This document shows, piece by piece, positions 27,602 to 37,249 of a stretch of DNA of 64,000 bases. The translations under genes and the position numbers were made by a program. This DNA is from Sanyastnella coralliicola (GTDB lineage: Bacteria; Bacteroidota; Bacteroidia; Flavobacteriales_D; Sanyastnellaceae): positions 885,501 to 949,500 of the forward strand of contig NZ_CP132543.1 in the NCBI RefSeq assembly GCF_030845195.1, read 5' to 3'. The first letter of the stretch is position 1. Every line of letters begins with the position of its first letter. The notes beneath the pieces are model-generated. The model worked only from the letters and a program-made list of their open reading frames with translations. It made no database searches and was not told where the DNA came from.

Positions 27602-28297
27602 ATGATCAACCTCCAAAACATCACCAAATCCTACAAGATGGGCAGCAATGAGCTGCAAGTTTTGAAAGGAATCGACCTCAACATTGCGGAAGGTGAATTG
27701 GTCTCGATCATGGGGTCTTCAGGTTCGGGCAAGTCAACCTTGCTGAATATCCTAGGCCTTCTCGATATCGCTGATGGAGGAACCTACACGCTCGATGGTA
27801 TTTCGATGGACAAGCTTTCAGAGACGCAGGCGGCGAAATACCGCAGTCAGTTTCTAGGCTTCGTTTTTCAGAGTTTTAACCTGATCAGTTTCAAGACAGC
27901 GGTAGAAAATGTGGCACTGCCGCTTTACTACCAAAAAGTCAATCGCAAGGAACGCAATAAGATGGCAATGGAGTACCTAGACAAGGTAGGCCTTGCCGAT
28001 TGGGCGAATCACTTGCCAAATGAGATGAGTGGTGGGCAAAAACAACGAGTGGCCATTGCGCGTTCATTGATTTCTAAACCTCGTTTGATTCTGGCCGATG
28101 AGCCCACAGGAGCACTGGATACTAAGACCAGTGAAGAGGTGATGGAAGTGCTCGATAGGGTAAACAAAGAAGGCATCACGGTAGTCATCGTGACACACGA
28201 AAATGAAATCGCAGAGTTAACCGATCGCGTGATTCGCTTACGTGATGGTTTGATCGAATCGACCGGACGTGCATCTGAAATTTTGACCAATAGTTAA
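27602..28297 (+). CDS. MacB/LolD-type ABC transporter ATP-binding protein
   Basis: 231 residues, normal length. Walker A GSSGSGKSTLL (about 39-49), Q-loop FVFQSFNL, signature MSGGQKQRVAIARSL (about 141-155), Walker B LILADEPTG with catalytic Glu, D-loop GALD and H-loop VIVTHE. Belongs to the MacB/LolD/FtsE-like group that works with FtsX-fold permeases. First gene of a four-gene operon with two permeases and an adaptor; likely exports or extracts a periplasmic substrate. Confidence 0.95.
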   Translation: MINLQNITKSYKMGSNELQVLKGIDLNIAEGELVSIMGSSGSGKSTLLNILGLLDIADGGTYTLDGISMDKLSETQAAKYRSQFLGFVFQSFNLISFKTAVENVALPLYYQKVNRKERNKMAMEYLDKVGLADWANHLPNEMSGGQKQRVAIARSLISKPRLILADEPTGALDTKTSEEVMEVLDRVNKEGITVVIVTHENEIAELTDRVIRLRDGLIESTGRASEILTNS

Positions 28298-28300
28298 GCC

Positions 28301-29527
28301 ATGTTCGATCGCGATAAATGGCTTGAAATATTCCACACCATTGTTCAGAACCCTCTGAGAACATTACTCACAGGCGTATCTGTTGCTTTGGGAATATTCA
28401 TTTTGGTCGTGATGCAAGGACTCGGTTTTGGACTGCAAAACGGAGTGTACACTCAAATTCAGGATGACGCTATCAATTCGTTATGGATTAGAAGTGGACG
28501 AACATCGCTTCCTTTCCGGGGATTGAATTCTGGTCGCCGCATTCAATATGACAATGATGACCTCAATTGGACCTTGGATAATATCGAAGGTGTCGGTGAT
28601 TATTCTGCGCGTGTGGCTTTTTGGGGAGCCTCAATGAACTATGGCCGTAAAACAATGAGTTTCCCGCTGAGAGGCATTCATCCAGGGCATCAAGAAATTG
28701 AACGGACAGACATTGCGAATGGGAGGTATATCAACGAATCAGATTTGATAGGATTCCGCAAGGTATGTGTGGTGGGTCAGGTCATCGTTGACGATCTTTT
28801 CGAAGGAGCAGACCCCATTGGGGAGTACCTCATGATTCGTGGTGTACAATTTAAAGTTGTCGGGACCTTCAACGACCCGAACAGTCGTTGGGAGAACCGA
28901 TTGGCGTATGTTCCTATTTCCTCGGCCCAAAAGCTTTTCGGTAAGAGTGAAGACATCGATATGTACATGATTTCCACTGGTACGGCCAATCTTGAGGAAT
29001 CAATTGAGATGGCCAATGAGATCGAAGCGTATTTGAAAGAGCATCACCGAGTCAATCCCAACGATAATCGTGCTGTAAGGGTTCGTAACAACAATGAAGA
29101 GTTCCGGGAATTCATGATGATATTCTTAGGAATTCGACTCTTCATCTGGGCTATTGGTAGCTTAACCTTGTTAGCCGGAATGATTGGTGTGGCGAACATC
29201 ATGTCGATCGTAGTGGCAGAACGAACCAAAGAAATTGGAATTCGAAAAGCACTAGGGGCTACACCGCGAACGATCTTAAGTTTGATTGTACAAGAGAGTA
29301 TCTTCCTTTCGCTTGTCGCAGGGTGTTGTGGATTAGTAGCGGGCATCGGCCTCCTAGAACTGATCGCCAGTTTCGTAGATCACGACTTTTTCAAGAACCC
29401 AAGCGTAGATTTCACCGTGTGTGTCATTGCCCTTGGCTTACTTGTAATTTCAGGAGCCATTTCCGGACTAATACCTGCTCTGAGAGCGGTATCCATAAAA
29501 CCCGTTGAAGCCTTAAGAGATGAGTAA
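28301..29527 (+). CDS. MacB/FtsX-fold ABC permease 1
   Basis: 408 residues with an N-terminal helix (LLTGVSVALGIFILVVM), a long periplasmic MacB-type domain (about 45-270), and three C-terminal helices (LLAGMIGVANIMSIV, then LVAGCCGLVAGIGLL, then VIALGLLVISGAISGLIPA). The motif ERTKEIGIRKALGATP is the usual coupling-helix signature. It starts MFDRDKWLEI, nearly the same as the next gene (MFDKDKWLEI), so the pair arose by tandem duplication and may form a heterodimer. Confidence 0.93.
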   Translation: MFDRDKWLEIFHTIVQNPLRTLLTGVSVALGIFILVVMQGLGFGLQNGVYTQIQDDAINSLWIRSGRTSLPFRGLNSGRRIQYDNDDLNWTLDNIEGVGDYSARVAFWGASMNYGRKTMSFPLRGIHPGHQEIERTDIANGRYINESDLIGFRKVCVVGQVIVDDLFEGADPIGEYLMIRGVQFKVVGTFNDPNSRWENRLAYVPISSAQKLFGKSEDIDMYMISTGTANLEESIEMANEIEAYLKEHHRVNPNDNRAVRVRNNNEEFREFMMIFLGIRLFIWAIGSLTLLAGMIGVANIMSIVVAERTKEIGIRKALGATPRTILSLIVQESIFLSLVAGCCGLVAGIGLLELIASFVDHDFFKNPSVDFTVCVIALGLLVISGAISGLIPALRAVSIKPVEALRDE

Positions 29528-30786
29528 TGTTCGATAAGGATAAGTGGTTAGAAATATTGCAGATCGTACTCCGGAACCCTATCCGAGCCTTTTTGTCGGG
29601 TCTTGGTGTGAGCTGGGGTATCATCATGTTGATCATTACCATCGGAAGCGTTAACGGGCTGCAAAATGGTATTCGTGCTGACTCCGCTAACAGGGCAGCG
29701 AACAGTATGTTCCTCTGGACGCAGCAGACGAGTATGCCTCATAAAGGGTTCAAGTCTGGACGTTACTTTCAGCTGAACAACAGCGACGTAGAATACTTAC
29801 GACGCAATCTGACAACGGTAGATCTCGTTTCTCCTCGCATTCAATTGGGAGGGTACAACGGATCGAATAACGTGACAAGAGGCGTTGAAACAGGGGCCTT
29901 CAACATCTATGGCGATACCCCTGACTACATTGACATTGAGCCTAACGACATCTATCAAGGACGTTACATCAATCAACGCGATATCGAAGAGGAGCGGAAG
30001 GTGTGTGTGATAGGTAAGCGAGTTTATGAAGTCTTGTTCCCTGATGGGGGTGAGGCCATAGGTGAGTATATCCGCATCAACGGAGTGAACTTCTTGGTGG
30101 TAGGGATGTACCGCTCATTTCGAACCGGGGAAGACGCGGAGGAAGCGACACAGTCGATTTTCGTTCCAATAACCACTTTCCAGAAAGCCTTTCACTTTGG
30201 TGATTACGTGGGTTGGTTATCGATTCTCATTAAGGAGGGAGTAAATGCCAATGATGGCGCCGACGAGGTTGTCGCAGCATTGAAAGCCAGAAAAAGTGTC
30301 CACCCAGATGATCCAAGGGCCTTTGGATTCTGGACGATGGCCGAGGAGCTGGAAGAGATTGAATTGGTCTTCACTGGATTCAATATTGTAGGTTTCTTCT
30401 TCGGTGGGTTGGTGTTATTGGCTGGTATTATTGGGATCGTCAACATCATGCTGATTACCGTGAAAGAACGGACCAAAGAAATTGGGATTCGAAGAGGTCT
30501 TGGAGCTACACCGTGGAAGGTGATTGAGCAAATCATCCTCGAGACCATCTTCTTAACTACGATCGCCGGATTGGGAGGTATGGTCTTCGGCGTGCTGTTG
30601 ATCGACATTGTAGCTGAAGTTCTTTCCATGTCTGGGGAGTCTGGATCATTCCGGAACCCTGGCGTTAAACTCGTGATCGTGGTATCGATCCTTGCATTTA
30701 TGATCATTATGGGGGCATTTGCGGGCTTACTACCTGCACTGCGCGCCGTAAGTATAAAACCTGTAGACGCCCTGAGGGCAGACTAA
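29527..30786 (+). CDS. MacB/FtsX-fold ABC permease 2
   Basis: 419 residues, same topology as permease 1. Its start overlaps the stop of permease 1 (TAATG). Coupling motif ERTKEIGIRRGLGATPWK and final helices ending VSIKPVDALRAD. The ATPase and both permeases form a transporter in which each half may differ in function. Confidence 0.93.
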   Translation: MFDKDKWLEILQIVLRNPIRAFLSGLGVSWGIIMLIITIGSVNGLQNGIRADSANRAANSMFLWTQQTSMPHKGFKSGRYFQLNNSDVEYLRRNLTTVDLVSPRIQLGGYNGSNNVTRGVETGAFNIYGDTPDYIDIEPNDIYQGRYINQRDIEEERKVCVIGKRVYEVLFPDGGEAIGEYIRINGVNFLVVGMYRSFRTGEDAEEATQSIFVPITTFQKAFHFGDYVGWLSILIKEGVNANDGADEVVAALKARKSVHPDDPRAFGFWTMAEELEEIELVFTGFNIVGFFFGGLVLLAGIIGIVNIMLITVKERTKEIGIRRGLGATPWKVIEQIILETIFLTTIAGLGGMVFGVLLIDIVAEVLSMSGESGSFRNPGVKLVIVVSILAFMIIMGAFAGLLPALRAVSIKPVDALRAD

Positions 30787-30798
30787 ACAATTAACAAC

Positions 30799-31905
30799 AT
30801 GAACAAAGGGTGCCTATACGTACTGATCACTTTCGTGGTCTTGATCCTCGCTGGAGCCGGAGGAACATTGTACTACCTCAAGGAGAAGGAATCGACTGGT
30901 CCTGAAACCTTTGACACCAAGAAAGCTGAGAAAACCGATATCGTTTTGAAAACGGTAGCCAATGGTTCAGTTCAGCCGCGTCAAGAGATTGAAATCAAGC
31001 CACAAATCAGTGGAATCATCAGCGAGATCTACGTCCAAGCAGGAGATATTGTGGAGGAGGGTGATCTTCTGGCGAAGGTGAAAGTGATTCCAGACATGGT
31101 AAGCATGAGTAATGCAGAAAACCGTTTGGAACGAGCACGTATTGCCCTAGATAATGCCGATATGGACTATGAGCGTAACAAACAATTGCTCGATAAAGGC
31201 GTGATTGCCCCAGCTGATTTCCAGCAGTTCGAAATTGCTCGCAGACAAGCGAACGAAGAATTTAAAGCGGCTCAAGACAACCTCCAAATTGTGCGCGAAG
31301 GTGTGGCTAAACGTTCTGGCGGTGCAACACTAACGAAAGTGCGTTCGACGATCTCAGGGATGATCCTTGATGTGCCGATTAAGAAAGGAAACTCAGTCAT
31401 TGAGGCGAACAACTTCAATGACGGTACAACCATCGCTTCTGTGGCGGCCATGGATGATTTGATTTTCCTCGGAAAGTTGGATGAATCTGAGGTAGAAAAG
31501 CTTTCTCCTGGAATGGAGTTGATTCTAACCATTGGTGCGATCGAAAACAAGACGTATAAGGCAGAACTCGAGTACATTTCACCAAAAGGAGTGGAGGAGA
31601 ATGGTGCGATTCAATTTGAGATTAAGGCAGCTGTAAAGCTTGATTCAACTGATTTCATTCGCGCAGGTTATAGCGCTAACGCGGATGTAGTCTTGGATAG
31701 AAGAGATCAAGTGATGGCAGTGCCAGAAGCAGTCATTCAGTTTGACGAAGAACAGAATACTTACGTTGAAGTTTCAGATGGAAACAGTGGCTGGACGCGC
31801 AAAGACGTTGAGCTTGGGTTGTCTGATGGAATCATGGTTGAGATCTTAAGTGGTATCACTGAAGAAGACGAGATCAAGGTCTGGAATCAACCACGCTTCG
31901 AATAA
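30799..31905 (+). CDS. MacA/HlyD-like periplasmic adaptor
   Basis: 368 residues. Signal anchor (YVLITFVVLILAGAGGTLYYL), biotinyl-lipoyl-like half-motifs split by a helical hairpin (IEIKPQISGIISEIYVQAGD; later MILDVPIKKGNSVI), a coiled-coil hairpin (about 98-160), and a beta-barrel/membrane-proximal part (VMAVPEAVIQFDE). It should link the ABC permeases to an outer-membrane channel. The only TolC in the window belongs to the other system at 32800, so the partner is not known. Confidence 0.9.
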   Translation: MNKGCLYVLITFVVLILAGAGGTLYYLKEKESTGPETFDTKKAEKTDIVLKTVANGSVQPRQEIEIKPQISGIISEIYVQAGDIVEEGDLLAKVKVIPDMVSMSNAENRLERARIALDNADMDYERNKQLLDKGVIAPADFQQFEIARRQANEEFKAAQDNLQIVREGVAKRSGGATLTKVRSTISGMILDVPIKKGNSVIEANNFNDGTTIASVAAMDDLIFLGKLDESEVEKLSPGMELILTIGAIENKTYKAELEYISPKGVEENGAIQFEIKAAVKLDSTDFIRAGYSANADVVLDRRDQVMAVPEAVIQFDEEQNTYVEVSDGNSGWTRKDVELGLSDGIMVEILSGITEEDEIKVWNQPRFE

Positions 31906-32721: not shown

Positions 32722-32805
32722 TTATTGGTATTTAGTATTTAGTTCTTAGTTCTTAGTCTTTCGTTCCACGAACCACGAACCACGAACCACGAACCACCCC
32801 TAGAA
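32722..32805. repeat. Twelve-unit period-7 array with motif switch
   Basis: Units TTATTGG, TATTTAG twice, TTCTTAG twice, TCTTTCG, TTCCACG, AACCACG three times, AACCACC and CCTAGAA. The register does not break where the motif changes from TTCTTAG to AACCACG. The last unit holds the TAG stop (32800-32802) of the minus-strand TolC gene. The array fills almost the whole convergent gap. Confidence 0.85.
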
Positions 32806-34185
32806 CACCACGTTCGAAGGTTCCTCCGTCAACATCAATAGTTTCCATTCTGTAGAACGAAGCTTGAGTTGTGTCTCAATTCGCTTCAACTCAGCTTCGA
32901 TGTAGCTGTTTTCTCGACGGTTTAAGAGGAAGATGGTGCTTTCACCGATACGTAGCTTTTGCTCTTCCATAGACAGTAGTTTGCGCGCATTGACTGCGTT
33001 TTCTTCTACTAATGAAAGGCTTTGATTCAGCAACGAAGTTTGGGTTGAAAGCTGATCGTACTTTTGCATCAGGTCACGTTCTGTCTGAGACAGTTTCAAG
33101 CTAACCTGTTCCATTTTAATCTTCGTGGCGTTGAACTTAGCGCGTTCTTTTCTACTGATGATTGGCACTTTTGCGCTAACGCCGAATATGGTGCTGTTAC
33201 TAGAAATGCTCAGGTTTCTAGGATCGGAAAGCGCCTGTGCTTTGAAGTCGATTTTCGGACGAAGGTTTTCTCTAGCTAATCTGAAATCAAGATCAGCTAC
33301 ACCAGCATCAAATCGGATCATGCCCATCTTCGGGTGGAGCAACAGCTGATCGTTAGTTGGGATTTGCTGTGAAAGCGTGGCAGTCCATGTTGAGTCTGGT
33401 TGGACACCGCCACGTCTATAGGCTGGTATGAGTTGTTGATCCCAAATCATTCCGCCAACGGTGCGGTACCAGAACTCTAGTTCTGCCTGTGAAGTCACTA
33501 ACTCGACTTTTCGCTTGACTACTTGGTTATAGGCTTCAAGCGTATCCATGGCCGTAGCCGCTCCTCCATTATAGCGCTGAACGGTTTGCTTATAGCGGAG
33601 TTGAGAAAGGGTAGTAATCTGCTCACGCATGTCTACCACGTCTTCGAGTGCTTTCCAGCTCCAGTATGCTTCAGCGGCAATGATAAGCCATTCTCGCTGT
33701 GCTAATTCGAGATCTAGAATACTGCGTTCGTTGAGCAATCGAGCGCGTTGAAGGTAAGTGTTGAACTCATCTCGCAATAACCCTTGTCCGAGCGGAACCT
33801 TTAATTCCGCGAAAGCGAGACCCTCTGAAGGAGTGAAACGTTCAGGATTAATGAAGTCTCCACGATTTAGGTCGGTACCAGCCCGCAGCTGGAATCCAGG
33901 AGGGAGGTTCCATTCAATGGATGAATGATTGTAGCTGTAATAATCTTTGCCTTCAAGAACCTTATTTCCGAATTCGCCATACCAAACAGGGTCAAAGGCG
34001 GCGCGGGCACTTTCAACGTCCAATTCGGCGATAGCCACATTGCGCTCAGCCACTTGAAGCAAAGGGTAAGAGGTCAGGAACTGCTGAAGAAAGCGCTGTT
34101 CACTGATCATCAGACTATCCTGAGCATTCAAGTATGATGCCGACAGGAGACCAACTAACAGGAGTACAACGCTACTTTTTCTCAT
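32800..34185 (-). CDS. TolC-family outer-membrane efflux protein
   Basis: 461 residues. Signal peptide (to YLNAQD). Two long periplasmic helical regions and strand segments typical of TolC (FDPVWYGEFGNKV; ARLLNERSILDLELAQREWL; AKVPIISRKERAKFNATKIKMEQVSLKLSQ). Trimeric outer-membrane channel. Its start overlaps the end of the HlyD gene by 14 bp. The three-gene minus-strand operon (ABC half-exporter, HlyD, TolC) has the layout of type I secretion. Confidence 0.9.
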   Translation of the reverse strand: MRKSSVVLLLVGLLSASYLNAQDSLMISEQRFLQQFLTSYPLLQVAERNVAIAELDVESARAAFDPVWYGEFGNKVLEGKDYYSYNHSSIEWNLPPGFQLRAGTDLNRGDFINPERFTPSEGLAFAELKVPLGQGLLRDEFNTYLQRARLLNERSILDLELAQREWLIIAAEAYWSWKALEDVVDMREQITTLSQLRYKQTVQRYNGGAATAMDTLEAYNQVVKRKVELVTSQAELEFWYRTVGGMIWDQQLIPAYRRGGVQPDSTWTATLSQQIPTNDQLLLHPKMGMIRFDAGVADLDFRLARENLRPKIDFKAQALSDPRNLSISSNSTIFGVSAKVPIISRKERAKFNATKIKMEQVSLKLSQTERDLMQKYDQLSTQTSLLNQSLSLVEENAVNARKLLSMEEQKLRIGESTIFLLNRRENSYIEAELKRIETQLKLRSTEWKLLMLTEEPSNVVF

Positions 34186-35530
34186 CCCCCTCTTTCTTTT
34201 CTTCTACATCTTTCCCTTCGTAGAACTCAGGAGGGAAACCGTTGATTTGTCGCCAAAGCTCGTATCCGAGAGGTACATCTTTCAAGAGTACCATTCCGTA
34301 AACACCTGATCCAATACTTAAAGGACGAGGCCATGATTCTCCTTCTTCAGGGATAATGATCACGCGGTACTTTCCTTTGGCATTTATTACCTGATCAACA
34401 CTCACCACTTGTCCTCCAAAGGTTCCCACAGAGGCACTAGGCCAGCCTGAGAATACCAAGGCAGGCCATCCATCAAATTGGAGTCGAACATTTTCTCCTG
34501 GATGAATCAAAGGGACATCCATCGCGTTAACGTAGAGTTCTGCAGCTTCTTGGAAGTCGAGTGGTTGAATCGTGCAGACAGAAGCTCCTGCCTTGATGAT
34601 TTCCCCCACACCACCTTGCGTTGTGCTTACTACTCGTCCGCCTTGAGGAGCAAGGATCACTTGGCCTGTTTGACGTGTGCGGTAGTTTGCCAGGGTGTTT
34701 TCCAATTTGGTCTTTTCCGCGATAGCGTCTTGCTTCGCAGCACCTGTTGAAGCTTGGTCACTCTGGTTCTTCGCAATCTTATCGTTGTATTCAGCGCGTT
34801 TGCTACGAACATCTAATCGAGCCACGCTCAATTCTTGACGTGTAGTGTTTAATGTATTCTCAGCCTTGACAAATTTTGCCTGAGCCTCCTGCTTTTTCAA
34901 GATGCGAGACTCAAGGTCCGTTTGTGTAATCAAGCCATCTTCAAATAATTGATAAGCACGTTTCTCACGTTCATTGGCGATATCGCGATCAATTCTAGCC
35001 TGAACAGCTGCCGCACTGTCCGCTGCTACCTTCTGAATAGACTGCTGAATTTTGAGTTTCGCTTGTTGAATAGCCAGCTCACGACGCTCTTCTAGGATGA
35101 CTTCTTGATTAGCCAGAGCTTCCAGCTTGTTGGTGTAAAGCACGATGGCTTCTTCCTTCGCACGAACCAAAGCCAGCGTTCTAGGAATAAGATCCTCATC
35201 GAGGTACTCCGGCTTTACCTCGGTCAATGTGACAATCGTATCTCCGGCGTTGATATTTTGCCCTTCAAATGCGTACCATTTCTTGATACGGCCATCGATC
35301 AGAGAGTTGACCTGCTGCGGCTTTTTATCTGGGAATCGAGAAATTACCTCTCCAGGAGCATTCAGGTTCTGCGTCCAAGGCAAAAGCATGAGGATGACCA
35401 GGATACCGAAGCTGATTCCTAGCATACGCAGGAACTTCGTCTGTTCGCCCTTACCCTCCAGTCTTTCAAGACTCTTAGAGTGCAAGTACTTCTCGCGTTC
35501 AGGTGTTGTATTTGGACTAATGTTCAGCAT
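34172..35530 (-). CDS. HlyD-family secretion adaptor
   Basis: 452 residues. One N-terminal membrane helix (LGISFGILVILMLLP), a lipoyl half-motif (VNSLIDGRIKKWYAFEGQNI), a very long coiled coil (about 105-275), a second lipoyl motif (VILAPQGGRVVSTTQGGVGE) and beta-barrel/strand region. The C-terminus is a charged tail (KEGDEKK). It starts 6 bp after the ABC gene stop, and should bridge inner-membrane exporter and TolC. Contains a 13-mer motif at 34715. Confidence 0.9.
   Translation of the reverse strand: MLNISPNTTPEREKYLHSKSLERLEGKGEQTKFLRMLGISFGILVILMLLPWTQNLNAPGEVISRFPDKKPQQVNSLIDGRIKKWYAFEGQNINAGDTIVTLTEVKPEYLDEDLIPRTLALVRAKEEAIVLYTNKLEALANQEVILEERRELAIQQAKLKIQQSIQKVAADSAAAVQARIDRDIANEREKRAYQLFEDGLITQTDLESRILKKQEAQAKFVKAENTLNTTRQELSVARLDVRSKRAEYNDKIAKNQSDQASTGAAKQDAIAEKTKLENTLANYRTRQTGQVILAPQGGRVVSTTQGGVGEIIKAGASVCTIQPLDFQEAAELYVNAMDVPLIHPGENVRLQFDGWPALVFSGWPSASVGTFGGQVVSVDQVINAKGKYRVIIIPEEGESWPRPLSIGSGVYGMVLLKDVPLGYELWRQINGFPPEFYEGKDVEEKKEGDEKK
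34715..34727 (+). repeat. 13-mer TTCCGCGATAGCG
   Basis: Exact copy, A variant, inside the HlyD gene (reads A-I-A-E on the minus strand). Confidence 0.8.
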
Positions 35531-35536
35531 AATCTA

Positions 35537-37207
35537 TCAGCTTTCTTTACGGAGAACACCGTCGTCATATTTTAGTCGTAAATCGAAGAATTCAGATCCT
35601 GGATCCGTCTCTCCAAGGAATATTACAGCCCATGGATGGAATGGATCAAGCAGGTAATTCAACAATTGCTTCTTTCGCACAGGGTCAGATGGTAATTGCT
35701 CAGCATCGACGATCAGAATATCTGGTTCATCAACCACCATGCGGGCTAAGAGAATGCCTTTTGTCAGTGAATTTGAAAGTAGGTTTGAGAATGGCAACAC
35801 CATTGTGTTTTCTCCCTCAGGTAGGAATCGTACATCTTTGATGAGTCCCATTTCGTTCAAGACCTTGTCAACTGCCTCATCCGGAATATCGCGACCCATG
35901 CGGATGTTTTCAAACACCGTATCAGTAAAGAGGGTGTCACGCCCCCATACTTCACCTACAGAAATTCGGTACAGGTCTTTGTTGAAGGTCTTCAACGATT
36001 TCCCACGATAGTGGACATGCCCTTGGAAGTTACAATCACGTGCTGTAATTAGCTGCACCATGGTCCGGACTAAGAAGGGGTGCTCATAACTGATAAAGAC
36101 TCGATCACCTTCATTAATCTGAAGTTCTTCAATCTCTAGTCGAGAAGTGTAATTGTCTTCTTGGATAATAACATCCTCCATTTTCAGGAGCGGAGCATTC
36201 GAAGATTGGTTCTTTACACTTCCTCCTTGTTCCAGTTTCAAATCAGTAACTGAACCTACTTTCTCAAGGGCAGTGAGGACATCATACACCGTCTCAAGAT
36301 TCAAAATCACCTTCTCTACTGAAGAACTAATCAAGAGGATAACGATTTCGGCTGCTACGAACTGACCAATCCCAATTTGGTTGTTGATTACAAGCAAGGA
36401 ACCTAGAAGTAGAAGACCCGCTGCAATGATCAGTTTAAAGATGAGGAGTGCGATGTAGTGTCGAACAAGAACCTTAAAGTGCTCTGTTCGAGCATCTAGG
36501 TATTTGTCAGTTAGATTATCCGTTTGCTTTTCTGCCATAGTGGTGGCAGGTGTCATTCTAAACGACTCGAGGTTCAATGCTACTTCTTCAAGCCATCGTA
36601 CAACAGAATATTTCCAAGTACTTTCTTGAATACTCGTGTTAAGTCCTCGTCTCATGGCCATTCTAAAGAGGAAGAACATGAGGATGATGAGCGCGAAATC
36701 GAAGAGGATGAAGAAGGGATGGTACAAGCCGAGTAGGATCAATCCAAAGAAGATCTGAAGTACGGCCGTAGAAAAGTCAATGATCAACTTGCTGATCCCT
36801 TTCTGTAACGTTAAGACGTCAAAGAAACGGTTCATCAACTCGGCAGGGTTTCTCTTTTCGAGCTCTCTGAACAACAGTTTAGGAAGGCGTACAGAGAATT
36901 CAATACTCGCTTTACTGAAGATTCTTTGTTGCAGGTATTCCGTTAGCCACTGCTGTCTAATTTGAAGCCAGCCACTAAAGAAGATTCCGAGAAGAACAAA
37001 GGAGATCAGAACGATCCAAGAGGTGCTGACACGACCTGCTTGAATGAAGTTGATGATAGCCTGAATTCCGAGGGGAAGGGAGAGACCAATAAGACCTCCA
37101 AAAGCGGCGATAAGAAATATCTTACCAAGTAGTTTTCGCTCGCCGTTGAGTAGTCTCCATAAACGTTGCCAAGGAGACAGTAAAGAGTTAGTTAAGTTGT
37201 TTCTCAT
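35537..37207 (-). CDS. ABC half-exporter with degenerate nucleotide-binding domain
   Basis: 556 residues, open throughout. Residues 25-315 are an ABC type I exporter membrane domain with six helices. Residues 340-556 hold the shape of the NBD but none of its catalytic motifs: the Walker A position is ISYEHPFLVRT (about 373-383, no GxxGxGK), the signature is LSNSL instead of LSGGQ (about 477), Walker B ends VDAEQ, so Asp is followed by Ala rather than Glu, and the H-loop region is FLGETD without His. TVFENI, part of the Q-loop segment, is kept. So ATP binding and hydrolysis by this subunit look lost. There is no peptidase C39 domain. First gene of an operon with HlyD and TolC. Confidence 0.85.
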   Translation of the reverse strand: MRNNLTNSLLSPWQRLWRLLNGERKLLGKIFLIAAFGGLIGLSLPLGIQAIINFIQAGRVSTSWIVLISFVLLGIFFSGWLQIRQQWLTEYLQQRIFSKASIEFSVRLPKLLFRELEKRNPAELMNRFFDVLTLQKGISKLIIDFSTAVLQIFFGLILLGLYHPFFILFDFALIILMFFLFRMAMRRGLNTSIQESTWKYSVVRWLEEVALNLESFRMTPATTMAEKQTDNLTDKYLDARTEHFKVLVRHYIALLIFKLIIAAGLLLLGSLLVINNQIGIGQFVAAEIVILLISSSVEKVILNLETVYDVLTALEKVGSVTDLKLEQGGSVKNQSSNAPLLKMEDVIIQEDNYTSRLEIEELQINEGDRVFISYEHPFLVRTMVQLITARDCNFQGHVHYRGKSLKTFNKDLYRISVGEVWGRDTLFTDTVFENIRMGRDIPDEAVDKVLNEMGLIKDVRFLPEGENTMVLPFSNLLSNSLTKGILLARMVVDEPDILIVDAEQLPSDPVRKKQLLNYLLDPFHPWAVIFLGETDPGSEFFDLRLKYDDGVLRKES

Positions 37208-37241: not shown

Positions 37242-37249
37242 CAAATTTA
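37242..37249 (-). promoter_or_regulatory. -7 box TAAATTTG
   Basis: Exact TAnnTTTG on the minus strand, 34 nt before the ABC half-exporter start; probable promoter of the ABC-HlyD-TolC operon. Confidence 0.55.

Follow-up and report, generated by a model that had tools for sequence, protein, structure and literature searches.

On the sequence evidence we think it rather likely that the gene at positions 35537-37207 (minus strand) of the window, by which we mean the whole 64,000-nucleotide stretch analyzed here, encodes one component of an ATP-independent, probably ion-driven, tripartite exporter, and that it belongs to a Bacteroidota clade of ABC-derived exporters that gave up ATP hydrolysis. 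Several things were seen directly. Catalytic motifs are lost throughout the clade, the operon is kept, the nucleotide-binding domain (NBD) has been deleted repeatedly with the operon still in place, the deleted domain was not relocated, and purifying selection acts on what is left. That the whole clade switched from primary transport powered by ATP to secondary transport powered by an ion gradient, with all of the stages still living, is an idea we hold tentatively and would lean slightly away from. The living stages run from a near-intact NBD, through a dead one with Walker A, a dead one without it and an eroded one, to a transmembrane domain (TMD) alone and a TMD fused to HlyD.

The window gene and its operon

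The 556-residue frame of the preliminary description is confirmed; it starts with ATG and has no internal stop. Frame, Pfam and motif alignment make it a degenerate ABC half-exporter, a TMD followed by an NBD that looks dead by its motifs. The TMD (residues 9-320; 36248-37183, minus strand) is placed by Pfam, alignment and a predicted structure. It had been called normal, and it does clear the Pfam ABC_membrane profile (PF00664) with 30.8 bits against a cut-off of 28. It is strongly conserved, and is the sole part remaining in the TMD-only and TMD-HlyD forms described below. The NBD (residues 331-556; 35540-36217, minus strand) is supported by Pfam, motif alignment, the predicted structure and a dN/dS of 0.025, and it falls under the ABC_tran threshold with 20.3 bits against 25.

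Each motif has a replacement in the alignment, all on the minus strand. YEHPFLVRT stands for GxxGxGKST at Walker A (residues 374-382; 36062-36088), LSNSL for LSGGQ at the signature (residues 477-481; 35765-35779), ILIVDAEQ for ILILDEAT at Walker B (residues 497-504; 35696-35719), and FLGETD for IAHRL at the H-loop, where the histidine is gone (residues 530-535; 35603-35620). The Walker B aspartate is retained (ILIVDA) and the catalytic glutamate has become alanine. Aligned with the window genome's own canonical half-exporters, YEHPFLVRT matches the Walker A columns without an indel, and the reported loss of Walker A, signature, Walker B glutamate and H-loop is borne out by replacements that sit in the same columns as the motifs of canonical exporters. 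Measured against what defines an ABC exporter, the protein has an ABC_membrane domain with six TM helices and, judged by the fold of the model, an ABC-type NBD fused to it; Walker A, the Walker B glutamate, LSGGQ and the H-loop are missing.

An AlphaFold2 monomer model made from 63 family sequences has a mean pLDDT of 83 and a pTM of 0.70, with the NBD blocks mostly at 84-92. It places six TM helices behind an elbow helix and gives them long intracellular extensions. The closest known structures are PCAT1, HlyB of the HlyB/D complex (TM-score 0.89) and ComA. The model suggests that the NBD has retained its fold while its chemistry is gone.

Directly downstream lie a HlyD-family periplasmic adaptor of 452 aa (34172-35530, minus strand; Pfam HlyD_3, 44.7 bits) and a TolC-family outer membrane factor of 461 aa (32800-34185, minus strand; Pfam OEP, 90.7 bits). 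The order is ABC, a 6-nt gap, HlyD, a 14-nt overlap, TolC, so the operon is intact as had been claimed. Of 146 loci, 143 have HlyD immediately after the family gene and 137 have TolC no more than three genes downstream. The promoter box that had also been proposed fares less well. The sequence TAAATTTG at 37242-37249 (minus strand), read directly from the DNA, fits the Bacteroidota -7 box and is plausible as one, but it is too short to serve as evidence, and sigma-70-like matches are no more frequent than chance.

Motif loss and selection across the clade

A match to the family was found in 57 of 60 relatives, about 35 of them strong. A contig scan of genomes gave 457 loci, of which 80 were kept, nearly all from Bacteroidota, and a broad Bacteroidota sample of 393 genomes from 180 genera has the family in 101 genomes and 52 genera; these genomes are mostly drafts or MAGs, and the locus counts take in related species. 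One locus (L065), whose record is named Saccharospirillaceae (Gammaproteobacteria), has a typical Bacteroidota family member and is probably a mis-binned contig.

Not one of 147 distinct dead-clade sequences carries the full catalytic set, and because of this the catalytic loss, as read from the alignment, is clade-wide and not local to the window. Close homologues with intact Walker A, Walker B and LSGGQ, which would have meant a local loss of function, are absent from the clade (0/147), and the alignment of homologues that had been proposed as a check finds the losses, apart from that of Walker A, conserved across its Bacteroidota members. Four or more of the five LSGGQ letters survive in 3 of the 147, DE in 1 and the H-loop histidine in 1. 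Of the losses originally described, those of the signature, the glutamate and the H-loop extend to nearly the whole clade. That of Walker A does not. Apart from the window's lineage, it is seen in a small number of others (L128, L129, L106 and L116/L117), and most members keep the motif. In the window's lineage three genera share the conserved P-loop replacement Y-x-[HN]-P-[FL]-[FL]-V-R-T.

The Walker A lysine is present in 137 of the 147 sequences and a swapped ED stands at Walker B in 54, which points to a nucleotide pocket kept in the main clade. One could argue from this that the NBD binds ATP without hydrolyzing it, as an ATP-gated or structural switch, and that the window's lineage later lost even the binding. 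Motif loss is indeed no strict proof that Walker-A-keeping members have lost ATP binding or slow hydrolysis. However, the window's lineage and L128, L129, L106 and L116/L117 have no Walker A and the pocket is missing outright from the TMD-only and fusion forms, so in none of these can ATP binding be essential, and we regard this explanation as unlikely.

Maximum-likelihood analysis of the membrane domain only (88 rows) recovers the dead clade as a single branch with support of 100/100. The branch adjoining it holds Bacteroidota relatives with Walker A, DE, the H-loop, a loosened signature and an extra N-terminal domain, and a small neighboring group (L191, L195-L197) has a near-intact LSTGQ together with DE and the histidine. 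With the root placed on that group, the topology suggests that the signature was lost before Walker B and the H-loop, and Walker A last. Decay goes on inside the dead clade. The extra N-terminal domain (residues 1 to about 150-260 of L174-L193) found no Pfam match in the examples tested, and we dropped the idea that it is a C39 peptidase, there being no Pfam hit. It also occurs on the dead members L167-L172 and has been lost from the main dead clade.

Selection was measured against a homologue that is 98% identical and has the same motif substitutions as the window. The dN/dS is 0.007 for the TMD and 0.025 for the NBD (7 nonsynonymous versus 58 synonymous changes), with HlyD at about 0.037 and TolC at about 0.045. 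Purifying selection acts strongly on the window's dead NBD, which is constrained about as tightly as its HlyD and TolC partners. Other closely related pairs show a higher rate for the NBD than for the TMD, again with dN/dS far below 1. The preliminary description argued that this is no recent pseudogene, and we agree, given a frame with no stops, the NBD dN/dS and a replacement motif conserved in three genera. It further held that the domain is probably kept for structure. Retention under selection is supported by this dN/dS and the fold is predicted to be intact; the structural role itself is probable.

There are two oddities that a defender of a pseudogene, or of an assembly or annotation artifact, could point to. 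The copy at L123 (G026:C204, a draft genome) is broken into two frames, whether by sequencing error or by a real break, and the copy with 98% identity is about 12 residues short at its end. We nevertheless give this explanation next to no credence, for hardly any genome has an internal stop in the frame, dN/dS is far below 1 in both domains, the replacement motifs are shared by three genera, and the contigs are long and come from near-complete genomes.

The low dN/dS of the TMD also bears on the idea that the protein no longer transports anything and only gives HlyD and TolC a platform in the inner membrane, from which TolC could be lent, say, to a MacAB-like locus at 27602-31905. Such a locus does lie beside the operon in the window's lineage (L036, L037, L122, L123). 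However, this adjacency is rare across the rest of the clade, and no part is better conserved than the TMD (dN/dS 0.007), the TMD-only forms included, which fits a transport core better than an anchor. A platform of this kind seems unlikely to us as well.

Deletion of the NBD and the search for a partner

A complex that works without ATP, one of the two options in the preliminary description, gains support from relatives whose operons keep the gene order but lack the NBD entirely. In L161-L166 the protein stops just past TM6 and a linker, at 332-349 aa. The stop falls anywhere from 5 nt inside HlyD to 69 nt before its start, which leaves no room for an NBD, as in the TMD-only forms of 332-339 aa. 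TMD-only forms are also seen in long contigs of near-complete genomes, and in one Bacteroidota family they make up 15 of 46 carriers, in four genera, at 334-365 aa. In the window's own family the TMD is fused straight to HlyD in genus g4 and one g9 species (742-776 aa), with TolC next wherever sequence is available. Most of the 690-839 aa frames that we first read as such fusions turned out to be an N-terminal domain plus TMD plus NBD, and true fusions are few. An intermediate state is found in L116/L117 (genus g20), whose NBD of about 200 residues has eroded beyond any Pfam match. A comparison of the two gives a dN of 0.097 and a dS of 0.87, so even this remnant is still constrained.

A single clade for all NBD-less forms is rejected (p-AU 0.0099) and a single clade for both fusions is not (p 0.449). 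We therefore count at least two complete losses of the NBD, and not three. The deleted domain did not move elsewhere in the genome. Searches of NBD-less genomes found no relocated NBD above about 155 bits, whereas in two control genomes the true family NBDs reach 268-277 bits, and the top matches in the NBD-less genomes sit in ordinary half-exporters of 580-640 aa.

In the main clade a TetR-family regulator (PF00440) sits ahead of the operon at 71 of 101 loci, as at L049:9284-9958, and there is also one beside a single TMD-only locus and a single TMD-HlyD fusion locus. Since it accompanies all three forms, the linkage suggests an inducible efflux function that outlived the loss of the NBD. It is missing from all of 25 less degenerate relatives and from every locus of the window's lineage, and a search of the window genome found none.

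The other option in the preliminary description was pairing of the dead subunit with an active ABC protein from another locus; in that case two half-exporters would form a heterodimer with one degenerate site. Such heterodimers are well known (PMC7756269), and four further type-I-like half-exporters with good motif sets, one of them with DD for DE, are encoded in the window genome. Against this, those proteins are only about 21% identical to the dead one, and nearly every genome carries a single family member (102 matches in 101 genomes). Among 148 loci, just a dozen or so have another NBD gene in the vicinity, and its place varies, so no linked second half-exporter is there to complete one ATP site. 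A mixed dimer would restore no full ATP site in any case, because the window subunit offers neither the Walker A side nor the signature side, and both sites would be incomplete. We find the pairing quite improbable. The half-exporter with DD in place of DE (L204:4951-6855, plus strand; window genome C1 near 2116253) keeps LSGGQ and the histidine, and no second half-exporter was seen beside it.

Energy source and comparison with known systems

The scheme that we prefer for the ATP-independent exporter would be as follows. The subunit would form a homodimer of the type IV ABC-exporter fold and dock the HlyD adaptor and the TolC channel. Substrate would be moved, presumably outward, by alternating access of the membrane domain with no ATP turnover, and would leave through the periplasm by way of HlyD and TolC. 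A proton or other ion gradient is the most plausible driver, by analogy with SbmA. In the window's lineage the dead NBD probably holds the dimer or the intracellular loops together, or binds a partner protein. Passive or purely structural roles are compatible with the same data.

Proton coupling in particular is suggested by the analogy and not singled out by the sequence. The candidate intramembrane acid is E287 in TM6 (codon 36347-36349, minus strand, placed by alignment), which is near-invariant in the dead clade and Asn in ComA. The other conserved ionizable residues of the TMD are E90, K258 and E298/K299. However, E287 is also present in 14 of 15 relatives that keep the ATPase motifs, and most of the others are common to them too. 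Because of this E287 is ruled out as a proton-coupling residue peculiar to the dead clade.

The family is ABC-derived, resembles type I secretion systems in gene order and fold, and fails the tests for an ATPase. With the exporters of those systems (HlyB/PrtD/LssB, PCAT/ComA) it shares the gene order and the HlyD and TolC partners, which in the window give the complete set of inner-membrane ABC protein, adaptor and outer membrane factor. The fold is alike (TM-scores of 0.89 to HlyB, 8dck, and 0.88 to PCAT1, 8vow), and the window protein shows profile similarity to TIGR03375, TIGR03796 and TIGR01846. In contrast to them it has no ATPase motifs and no peptidase domain, and scores 51-77 bits where the family cut-offs are 690-850; against the LssB profile it reaches 73 bits (cut-off 693) and against HlyB 51 (cut-off 726). 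No linked substrate gene was recognised in the window operon. The heterodimeric exporters (TM287/288, TmrAB, TAP) also combine degenerate NBD motifs with a highly similar fold, but they keep one consensus site, whereas a homodimer of the window protein would have none, and the window family has no linked partner and has relatives with no NBD. EmrAB-TolC-type pumps resemble it in having a HlyD-type adaptor, TolC, often a TetR gene and an inner-membrane part presumably not driven by ATP; that part is of ABC descent here and not MFS.

The SbmA/BacA-like peptide transporters (SLiPT) offer a parallel for the energy source. SbmA is proton-driven and is inferred to have been derived from an ABC exporter by loss of the NBD (PMC13316013), so an ABC-exporter TMD works without an NBD there and probably does here too. 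The SLiPT proteins have an additional TM0 and have lost the coupling helices (PMC13316013), while the model of the window protein has no TM0 and keeps its intracellular helices. The window protein also keeps its dead NBD; L161-L166, L120 and L121 have the ABC-exporter TMD without one, as in SLiPT. As for the glutamate ladder and proton coupling of SLiPT, E90, E287 and E298 are conserved here, though shared with the ATPase-motif relatives. The Bacteroidota family differs in its origin, in its coupling to HlyD and TolC, which presumably makes it an export system, and in having dead-NBD intermediates that are still living.

To our knowledge SbmA is the case known of a secondary transporter built on an ABC-exporter TMD, and the steps that led to it have had to be inferred. 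Living intermediates within one gene family and operon make the loss of a motor with function kept directly testable, and they let one ask why the dead NBD is still kept. Labels such as ABC transporter or type I secretion ATPase, which automatic annotation probably gives these genes, would misstate their energy source. The open-access literature we searched holds no published description of the family, and this absence is no proof of novelty.

The MacAB-like locus of the window (27602-31905, plus strand) is convergent with the dead-ABC operon. It consists of an ATPase of 231 aa, two FtsX/MacB-type permeases and a MacA-like adaptor, and has no TolC of its own. The same neighborhood is repeated in L036 and L037, and an ATPase gene is similarly placed in L122 and L123.
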